Positions 54,235 to 60,204 of a stretch of DNA of 64,000 bases are shown one piece after another (within the stretch, counting starts at the first letter, position 1; each line of letters starts with the position of its first letter). Origin of the DNA: Phycomyces blakesleeanus NRRL 1555(-) (taxonomy: Eukaryota > Mucoromycota > Mucoromycetes > Mucorales > Phycomycetaceae); assembly GCF_001638985.1 (NCBI RefSeq), contig NW_017265139.1:2356001-2420000 (forward strand). The letters are read 5' to 3'. The notes beneath the pieces are model-generated. The model had not been told where the DNA came from. It made no database searches and saw nothing but the letters and a program-made list of their open reading frames with translations. A program made the position numbers and the translations under genes.

Positions 54235-57200
54235 ATGTTAAGAATTTCCCGACAAACGGTCTCTCGCCCAACTACTTTTCGGCGAGTACCTTTGACTTCT
54301 ATTCGCCGAGCAACAACAGCATCATCAAGCGTAACTAGAAATCGTGTATATGCAAATGTTAGCCGTGTAGGTGTATCGACAGGCTTGCGGCAATTTCCCG
54401 ACACTGACTTTTTTAGCTTTGCTAAAAGATTCTATGCTGGTATGTAAAATAAAGAATATGTTATATTGTAGTATCATTAGCTTATCTCTAAAGCACTCGA
54501 GATTGTTGACTTTCGGAATAAATTTCTTAACTGAATCATACATAGGAGGAACGCCTGGAGGAATGCGTATGAACCCAGCCCAAGAACAAGAGCAGCAATC
54601 GGCTTTGCAACTCTATGTGTGTACATATAGCATATATGTAATATATATTTCGACCATTTCTAACAATATGTATATATATATCTTAACCAGGGACTCGATC
54701 TAACTGCTTTGGCGGAAACGGGCAAGCTGGGTAAGATCAAGATATTCTGGATAATTCTGTAGCGGGCTTTATCGAATGCTTATATCGGCATTTGTCTGAG
54801 TAAAACTAATAAGTAATCATGTCTTGATTTATGTTTAGACCCTGTCATTGGCAGAGATGAAGAAATCAGACGAACTCTTGAAGGTAATAAAGTTTTTATT
54901 TGCCCATTCAGGCAAAGAGGCACCGAGAATTAACTCATTCTGTCTATAGTGTAAGATGAACACAGTAATATATGATTATGGAGCTGTATATTTATGTGAA
55001 CATTAGATTGGCACGACGAACAAAGAACAACCCAGTGTTGATCGGAGAAGCAGGGTAAGCTAAAATTAAAAATACAACAAAGATCATTTATTAAGCTTCT
55101 TAATAGTGTGGGTAAAACTGCCATTGCAGAGGTGAGTTTCCTTAGATAGTACTGGGATTATTCTCCTAACTCATCGTGTTTTATGTCAGGGCCTTGCCCA
55201 GCGTATCGTGGCAAATGAAGTCCCCGAATCTATCCAGGGAAGACGTGTTATTACACTTGATCTTGGTGTAAGTGTGGATTGATGCTATATCACGTGTATG
55301 TATGTGTATTTATGTTCCATAAAAAAATGGTTGTGTGTAGAGTCTTGTAGCTGGTGCAAAGTATCGGTAAGAAAAGCTAAACTCCCGTTTGCAGAGATGA
55401 TATTGATTGTTAATGTTTTAAAAAAACAGCGGAGAATTTGAAGATCGTCTCAAGGCTGTTCTTAAAGAAGTTACAGAAGCAAACGGAAAGATCATTCTTT
55501 TTATTGATGAAATCCACAACTTGCTTGGACTTGGAAAGTCAGAGGGTACAATGGATGCCGGTAACCTGCTTAAGCCAGCACTTGCTAGAGGACAGCTGCG
55601 ATGTGTTGGTGCTACTACCATTGATGAGTACAGAAAGTATATCATGAAGGATCCAGCATTAGCAAGACGTTTTCAGCAGGTTCTTGTTGAGGAACCGACA
55701 GTTCAAGATACAATTTCAATTTTGAGAGGCCTCAAGGAGCGTTATGAGATTCATCATGGTGTGAGAATTGCTGACTCGGCACTGGTGTCTGCAGCCATCA
55801 ACTCCCACCGCTATATTACAGAAAGATTCTTGCCTGATAAAGCCATTGATCTTGTAGATGAAGCATGTTCCAAATTAAGGCTTCAGCAAGAGAGCAAACC
55901 CGAGGTCCTTGAGAACCTTGATCGTCAGATAATGACTACTCAGATTGAACTCGAATCTCTCCGAAAAGAGTCTGATGCAGCATCCGTAGAGCGAAGAAAT
56001 AAGCTTCAATCTGAACTTGAAGAAAAACAAAAAGAAAGTCAGAGATTGTCGGCTATCTGGAACGAAGAGCGCCAAAAACTAGAAGGAATTCAAAAAATCA
56101 AAGAAGATCTTGAGAAAGCTCGTGTTGAGCTGGACTTGGCCCAAAGATCTGGAAACTTCCAGAAAGCGTCTGAGCTGCGTTACGGGACCATTCCTACTCT
56201 GGAGAAGAAACTTCCAAAGGAAAACCTCGATGAAGATAATCCAGACGCATTTATTCACGAGAGAGTTACAGCTGATGATATTGCTCGTGTTGTTGCCCGT
56301 ATGACGGGTATTCCTGTGCGTAACTTGATGAAAGGCGAGAGAGAAAAGCTTTTGCACATGGAGGATGTGTTGAAGGAGCGCGTTGTTGGCCAGACTGAAG
56401 CTATATCTGCTGTATCTGATGCTGTACGACTCAGTAGAGCAGGTCTCCAGAACCCTTCTAGACCAATTGCATCGTTTATGTTTCTAGGTCCAACTGGCGT
56501 CGGAAAAACCGAGCTCTGCAAAACCATTGCTGATTTCTTGTTTGATACTGAAAATGCTATTGTGCGAATCGACATGTCAGAATACATGGAGAAATTCTCG
56601 GTCAGCCGTTTGATTGGATCTCCTCCAGGTTATGTTGGTCATGAGGAAGGTGGTGAACTTACCGAAGCCGTGAGAAGACGCCCTTATGCAGTTGTACTTC
56701 TTGATGAAATGGAGAAGGCTCACAGAGATGGTAATATTCCAAGTGTTAGTGCCATTAATTGAATTAACACTAATACATGCCTCTCCAGTCTCGAACATTC
56801 TTCTCCAAGTCTTGGATGATGGTATTCTCACCGATAGTACGTATAGTTGCGACTTGTATCTATGTCTGTGTAATGTTACTAAGATTTATATATAGGCAAG
56901 GGACAAAAGATTGATTTCAAGAATACGATCATTATTATGACATCCAATTTGGGTGCTGAAGCATTAGTATCCGATGCATCGAGTGACACCACTGTCAGCA
57001 CAAGAGCGAGAAGTAGTGTTATGGATGCTGTGCGTCACAATTTTGCTCCTGAATTTATTAACCGTATCGATGAGATGGTAAATATGATTAGATGTAGGCA
57101 TTTTTCTATAAGAAAGCTAACATTCTTGTATGTATGTATGTATGTATGTATGTATATATGTATATATATATATATATTTAAACAAAGGTTATCTTTAACC

Positions 57201-57580
57201 GACTCACCAAACCGGCTCTTCGTGACATTGTAGATGTCAGACTGAAGGAAGTAGAGGAACGTACCAAGGACCGGAATATCAAGTTAGATGTGGATATGGC
57301 AGCGCGTGACTGGCTTGGTGAGCACGGCTACGATCCTGCGTATGGTGCTCGTCCTTTGAACCGTCTGATTCAAAAGTCCCTCCTTAATCCACTTGCCCAT
57401 CTTCTTATTGATGGTGGTGTGCGTACTGGCGAAAAGGCAAAGGTGACTGTCCATCAGACAGAGTCGGGTGAGACTCAATTGGATATCCAGCGTAACCATC
57501 CTCCTGGAGAATTGAGTCCAAATGAAGAGAAGAATTTGAAAAACAAAATAGCACCTGTAGGCGATGAAGAACTCGATTAG
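54235..57580 (+). CDS. HSP78: Mitochondrial ClpB-type disaggregase Hsp78
   Basis: AAA+ hexamer that resolubilises matrix proteins with mtHsp70. An Arg/Ser/Thr-rich targeting peptide ([20 protein letters not shown]) is followed by a short N-terminus lacking the Clp-N domain, as in Hsp78. AAA1: [30 protein letters not shown] (Walker A), [12 protein letters not shown] (Walker B) and [13 protein letters not shown] coiled-coil middle domain follows (about 55880-56200). AAA2: [71 protein letters not shown] and NRIDEM. The C-terminal domain holds [15 protein letters not shown]. The 5' half is broken into many small exons. At 54950 a single T between two introns restores the GTA (Val) codon in [16 protein letters not shown]. 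An in-frame Met at 54202 is a weaker start. Confidence 0.95.

Positions 57581-58890: not shown

Positions 58891-60204
<1,314 letters not shown>

Follow-up and report, generated by a model that had tools for sequence, protein, structure and literature searches.

A probable single-nucleotide exon in the HSP78 gene of Phycomyces blakesleeanus and its signature in the protein models of related fungi

In the papers cited here, spliceosomal exons of one nucleotide are described from two genes of plants and a single gene family of Fusarium. A single-nucleotide exon was reported in APC11 of Arabidopsis (PMC4674806), and exons of this kind were reported in both APC11 and VPS55 across land plants (PMC8831610). 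For APC11, the authors suggest that the flanking introns are removed consecutively, by intron definition together with recursive splicing, and they argue from the size of the spliceosome that simultaneous recognition is unlikely (PMC4674806). The CYP621A genes of Fusarium are claimed by their authors as the second example, and the first from fungi (PMC12940212). Related phenomena include the one-base coding exon of placozoan mitochondrial cox1 (PMC5436844), the 0-nt ratchet points of Drosophila (PMC8605326), and the fungal stwintrons, in which one intron lies inside a splice site of a second and splicing is consecutive (PMC5639578).

The window analyzed here (a 64,000-nt stretch of the P. blakesleeanus NRRL 1555(-) genome) contains a gene for HSP78, for which a spliced model without stops can be built; its product carries the Pfam domains AAA, AAA_lid_9, AAA_2, and ClpB_D2-small. 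Three Phycomyces database proteins match this product at 99, 100, and 95% identity (rounded) over 100, 91, and 86% of its length; the match at 100% over 91% is PHYBLDRAFT_56671 from P. blakesleeanus NRRL 1555(-). The gene very probably has a predicted one-base exon, T54950, within the codon for Val-121, and the features around it are as follows.

54235-57580, + strand: HSP78, mitochondrial ClpB-type disaggregase, 13 exons, 820 aa
54839-54883, + strand: exon 4, last bases GAA G, ending in phase 1
54884-54949, + strand: upstream intron, 66 nt, GTAATA...CTATAG, with a branch-site-like TTAAC whose A lies 16 nt from the 3' end
54950, + strand: exon 5, predicted to consist of T alone, the second base of the GTA codon for Val-121
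54951-55006, + strand: downstream intron, 56 nt, GTAAGA...CATTAG, phase 2, with a weak branch-site-like TTTAT
55007-55054, + strand: exon 6, first bases A TTG GCA CGA
54948-54956, + strand: overlapping sites AG-T-GTAAGA, read directly from the sequence, in which the upstream acceptor's AG doubles as positions -3/-2 of the downstream donor

Like the APC11 exon, T54950 is one base between an AG and a GT, is needed for the reading frame, and lies in a conserved gene (PMC4674806; PMC8831610); unlike APC11, HSP78 is a fungal chaperone gene with short introns (66 and 56 nt), and the exon is predicted here from genomic sequence and protein models. The 1-nt microexon of VPS55 is well conserved, as that of HSP78 probably is too, is absent from reference annotations, and is followed by a GTRAGT donor, compared with GTAAGA in HSP78; it belongs to plants, however, and has RNA evidence, with isoforms reported both with and without the exon (PMC8831610). 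CYP621A is also fungal, and in it too a phase-1 exon end meets a phase-2 start within a conserved motif, gene models are faulty at the joint, and the gap is roughly double the size of a usual intron (139 nt, vs. 123 nt in HSP78); there, however, the base is a G in a Gly codon, was described from Fusarium only, and is documented by 18 RNA reads (PMC12940212), whereas the HSP78 arrangement probably spans many genera. The first-pass annotation of this DNA had called one-nucleotide exons extremely rare, with a plant APC11 gene as a known case; the kind is better documented than was implied, with plant VPS55 and the Fusarium CYP621A genes beside APC11. Among the more distant systems, cox1 shares the one-base coding exon but involves group I introns in a mitochondrial genome and is not spliceosomal (PMC5436844). 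An acceptor adjoining a donor and stepwise removal are shared with the Drosophila ratchet points, but HSP78 is not a ratchet point of recursive splicing, as one nucleotide is kept in a codon and the introns are short (PMC8605326). The stwintrons share consecutive splicing at one place, and HSP78 differs in that no splice site is interrupted (PMC5639578).

Rereading the sequence confirmed the junctions proposed in the first-pass annotation (an exon end at 54883, introns of 66 and 56 nt, T54950, and an exon start at 55007), together with its claim that one base is missing for the Val codon: HSP78 has an uninterrupted reading of 820 aa only with T54950. If exon 4 is joined straight to exon 6, the frame shifts and a stop follows after 11 wrong residues. 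Single introns that could bridge the gap were enumerated with GT or GC donors at 54842-55000, AG acceptors up to 55039, and a length of at least 20 nt. Nine are in frame and free of stops (five GT-AG and four GC-AG), which makes incomplete the earlier statement that the only other GT-AG solution lies at 54892/54983, and none of the nine keeps the conserved AAA1 stretch. If the dinucleotides are left free on the donor side (54876-54900) and on the acceptor side (54980-55015), joints of one residue give Gly (three ways) or Arg (one way), and never Val. Within the 123-nt gap, AG-N-GT occurs once, at T54950, and T is the sole base that makes the codon G-N-A a Val codon. Exactly one nucleotide restores both the frame and the conserved protein, and it stands directly between AG and GT with introns of workable size on either side, both inside the range of the other ten HSP78 introns (52-110 nt). 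Frame, splice sites, length markers, and one database model with Val all support the one-base exon. We put the probability at roughly 0.93 that T54950 is a constitutive one-nucleotide exon between two consecutively removed major-spliceosome introns, in an arrangement that is probably ancestral and has been partly undone.

For comparison with other proteins, two protein searches were run and the best 120 matches of each were taken, giving 136 proteins in all. Seven were excluded (five start beyond the junction, and two are distant 'ena' proteins), and the others form sets of 71 models from Mucoromycotina, Glomeromycotina, and Calcarisporiella, and 58 from other fungi. Genera were assigned to these two sets by their taxonomy, and P0005 and P0016 were placed in the first set, where their best match lies. 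The three Phycomyces proteins in the collection disagree exactly at codon 121: P0001 has Val; P0002, whose contig is as long as that of the window (2,433,215 bases), has Gly; and P0003 has an 11-residue insert. Provided that the DNA behind P0001 is identical to that of the window, its Val can be reached with GT-AG introns by way of the T exon only. The insert of P0003 is identical to the in-frame single-intron solution at 54892/54983, and the DNA of P0003 must therefore contain the same frame gap.

The residue expected at this position was also assessed from sequences serving as length markers. Locus searches with P0004 covered the best 80 of 493 relatives in the set viral_contigs and the best 80 of 584 in genome_contigs; these best 80 loci of each yielded no orthologous gene layout, with no fungal gene recognized in viral_contigs. 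The loci in genome_contigs are bacterial records and those in viral_contigs have 41-60% identity, and both were used as a residue control. Val or Ile occupies the position in all 80 of the best bacterial ClpB loci (52 Val, 28 Ile) and in 59 of the 60 viral-contig loci with a readable motif, the remaining one having Thr (20 of the best 80 are without the motif). Two paralogs in the same genome, L170 (G000:C1:1244025-1245356) and L171 (G000:C8:222266-223609), have open frames of 934 and 903 aa and 57-58% identity to HSP78 over 433 residues, and are probably HSP104. Both have Val or Ile at the position, and their long open frames make them length markers free of introns there, a role filled in the Fusarium study by an intronless Aspergillus gene (PMC12940212). 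The three best solved structures, all ClpB, have no gap at the Val-121 position in the alignments shown.

A single non-canonical intron (TA-AG at 54885-55006 or GT-TA at 54884-55005) would give Glu-Gly-Leu, and we regard it as very unlikely. The Gly of P0002, which counts against the one-base exon, would need an intron of this type, and a lone Gly is also present in 10 of the 71 group models. Gly is nevertheless absent from all 80 bacterial loci, from the 60 viral-contig loci that could be read, from both paralogs, and from the 58 other fungal models, and Val occurs in P0001 and 17 other models of the group. A cDNA with the extra T that is mis-mapped on the genomic G would give exactly Gly, and the P0002 residue may well be the product of a transcript with one extra base laid on the genome in this manner.

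The one-base exon would also be an artifact if a base were missing from the sequence of exon 4 or exon 6, such that one real 123-nt intron is present and AG-T-GTAAGA is coincidental. Any single-base error near the joint would make the same puzzle, and the first-pass annotation had named a missing or extra base as grounds for rejecting its reading. That objection is weakened, so far as the two contigs rest on independent reads, by P0003, which comes from a contig of different length (3,039,372 vs. 2,433,215 bases) and shows the same frame relation in its insert. In addition, P0038 belongs to a different genus and likewise falls short by exactly one base, and codon 121 is where models from many genera fail. 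Coincidence is likewise a poor explanation of the splice sites: with site profiles trained on the ten other introns of HSP78, an equally strong central T exon arose in 4 of 20,000 dinucleotide shuffles of the 123-nt gap (16 of 20,000 for any base). We consider sequence error very unlikely as well.

Across the rest of the window, an equally strong T exon was found at none of 60,301 positions per strand, and one with any base at 1 position per strand. Site strength carries most of the weight of this argument, since a bare central AGTGT, with strength ignored, occurred in 1,222 of 20,000 shuffles. When left out of the training, the donors of the upstream and downstream introns score 4.7 and 8.2 (ten other introns, 2.3 to 8.8), and their 6-nt acceptors score 4.7 and 3.1 (ten other introns, -1.2 to 5.3). 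A longer, 12-nt acceptor profile counts against the model, with both acceptors (2.5 and 0.0) below all ten training acceptors (4.1 to 11.2), which in this profile were scored on themselves; the weakness of the branch-site-like motif in the downstream intron is a further point against. Three other matches to CTATAGTGTAAG in the genome were taken as chance 12-mers. The donors of minor (U12-type) introns follow an RTATCCTT-like consensus, and the donors GTAATAAA and GTAAGATG are unlike this type.

Two further readings have almost no weight. One canonical intron at 54884-55035 (152 nt) is GT-AG and in frame, but would join RRTLE to VLIGEA and so remove ten residues just before Walker A, residues that the clean models keep, and it is used by none of the three Phycomyces models. 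A stwintron, suggested by two adjoining introns that need consecutive removal as in known fungal cases, is just as improbable, as both introns have complete sites with the acceptor AG of the first one whole, readings of donor and acceptor reveal no interrupted site, and nesting that breaks the donor after its first base would (by hand) join GAA to ATT GGC with loss of the frame.

The one-nucleotide exon is probably also reflected in the protein models of relatives. The 71-model set comprises 18 clean models, 10 with a single Gly, 17 with an insertion, 15 with a deletion, skip, or frameshift, eight without the upstream exon, and three without both sides; 34 genera are represented by irregular models only, and one or more clean models come from each of nine named genera. 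Among the other fungi, 57 of 58 models are clean at codon 121, with Val or Ile and no insertion or deletion. Because 18 of the 71 are clean, the structure is either not universal in the group or sometimes annotated correctly. An alignment gap falls at the codon-121 junction in 37 of 69 models of the Mucoromycotina, Glomeromycotina, and Calcarisporiella set, vs. 1 of 58 from other fungi, and gapped models make up 0 to 11% of that set at each junction that follows exons 2, 3, and 6 to 12. At the junction after exon 1, in the variable presequence, 52% are gapped (23 of 44), and other fungi are gapped there as often (26 of 47). Gap rates at residues 444-447 come close to that at codon 121, and those at 652-656 are lower; both look like natural length variation, since other fungi vary there even more (residue 445, 34 of 71 vs. 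47 of 58; residue 655, 18 of 71 vs. 34 of 58).

The irregular models further show a phase signature. With a phase-1 end in G on exon 4, the next residue must be coded by GNN (Gly, Ala, Asp, Glu, or Val), and the residue following Glu or Gln is so coded in all 41 readable irregular models, which are not 41 independent tests, as some genera contribute more than one of them. In 37 of these the residue is not Val, which excludes for them an exon ending in phase 2 with GT. A binomial value for 41 of 41 would be overstated, because the five GNN-coded residues account for 37.7% of all residues in these proteins, some of the models are related to one another, and eight are deletion models (Ala, Gly, or Glu before native sequence) in which a phase-0 joint would leave a GNN-coded residue as well. 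The pattern did not read P0091. At the other side, a downstream intron that ends in AG before the third codon base would leave a retained tail with Arg or Ser before Leu. Such an ending is found in 12 of 18 insertions (P0003 among them, and P0091 and P0119 too) and not in the other six, and in six of the eight models without the upstream exon, the exceptions being P0025 (Val) and P0039 (Glu). Both marks occur in one protein in models of Mucor, Fennellomyces, Choanephora, Halteromyces, Gilbertella, and Funneliformis; the Rhizophagus diaphanus model has both marks, but with Val first.

Individual models are informative as well. P0038 from Cunninghamella echinulata (VWPEEQKIIL) corresponds to the conserved stretch read one base short, which explains 10 of its 10 residues; with two bases missing, 0 residues are explained, and none of 20,000 random 10-mers passes the same test. 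The test explained 0 residues in P0030 from Circinella, a model that also has an insert. P0119 (Spizellomyces) and P0091 (Calcarisporiella) have long inserts at codon 121 with Val-Ser first, which may be an unspliced intron in phase 0 or 2, and they were not counted as cases of the one-base exon. In P0032 from Rhizopus delemar, RRTLEV is followed directly by VGKT. From this one model, the R. delemar gene is best explained by an exon 4 that ends in GAAGT, which would mean that the upstream intron is gone there and that exon 4 has taken in the T.

The arrangement suggests how T54950 would be spliced. The 66- and 56-nt introns would each be recognized through intron definition, and their excision would be consecutive. 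The U1 footprint on a donor extends from -3 to +6. Because the upstream acceptor AG is also positions -3/-2 of the downstream donor, both sites are unlikely to be bound at the same time. It is somewhat more probable that the upstream intron would usually go first than the reverse: its branch site is the better of the two and, like its acceptor, is transcribed sooner. The donor of the downstream intron is the stronger one (8.2 vs. 4.7), but that intron has only TTTAT as a branch-like site. Removal of the upstream intron would leave exon 4 ending in ...GAAGT, followed by GTAAGA, with a donor in the same local context (AGT before GTAAGA). Joining this donor to exon 6 would then produce GAA-GTA-TTG (Glu-Val-Leu). 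If the T were skipped, the frame would shift and translation would end 11 residues on, and the skipped transcript would presumably decay.

The common ancestor of Mucoromycotina and Glomeromycotina probably already had a phase-1 donor, a 1-nt T, and a phase-2 acceptor, deep conservation being read here from annotation failures in protein models. This ancestral arrangement has probably been undone in part by loss of the upstream intron, as in Rhizopus. The case is probably not private to P. blakesleeanus, given the phase signature in models from many genera. At odds barely better than even, we also favor a wider proposal, according to which the ancestral exon would have been spliced stepwise since then in many lineages and would be why most of the public models examined are wrong or truncated there, and its skipping could act as a frameshift off-switch for HSP78.

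The HSP78 case concerns a core heat-shock gene, and the exon has apparently been kept over a very long time. Phycomyces and Fusarium belong to different fungal phyla, and a one-base exon here would extend the kind to a further fungal phylum. Lineages that keep both introns and those that lost the upstream one would form a natural series in which to ask how the spliceosome deals with an acceptor only one base away from a donor, and why selection keeps them so. In practical terms, 53 of the 71 HSP78 models examined from the group are not clean where the first ATPase domain begins. Literature searches, with partial coverage, returned nothing on Hsp78 introns in Mucorales; among the matches listed, those on single-nucleotide exons contained no report of the HSP78 case and those on introns or alternative splicing in the Phycomyces genome had nothing on HSP78 by title and start of abstract, and those on microexons in fungi or Mucor had nothing on the subject by the same standard.

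Elsewhere in the gene there are two more very short exons on the + strand, at 55107-55131 (25 nt) and 55341-55366 (26 nt). P0001 is without the 25-nt exon and has intron-derived residues there instead. On the 3' side of HSP78 and on the same strand (58918-60049, +), the window has a match to an aldose-1-epimerase-like protein. The domain PF01263 is joined with HSP78 in a single model in six proteins (P0003, P0042, P0046, P0047, P0055, and P0109), which suggests a conserved order of the neighboring genes together with fused models.
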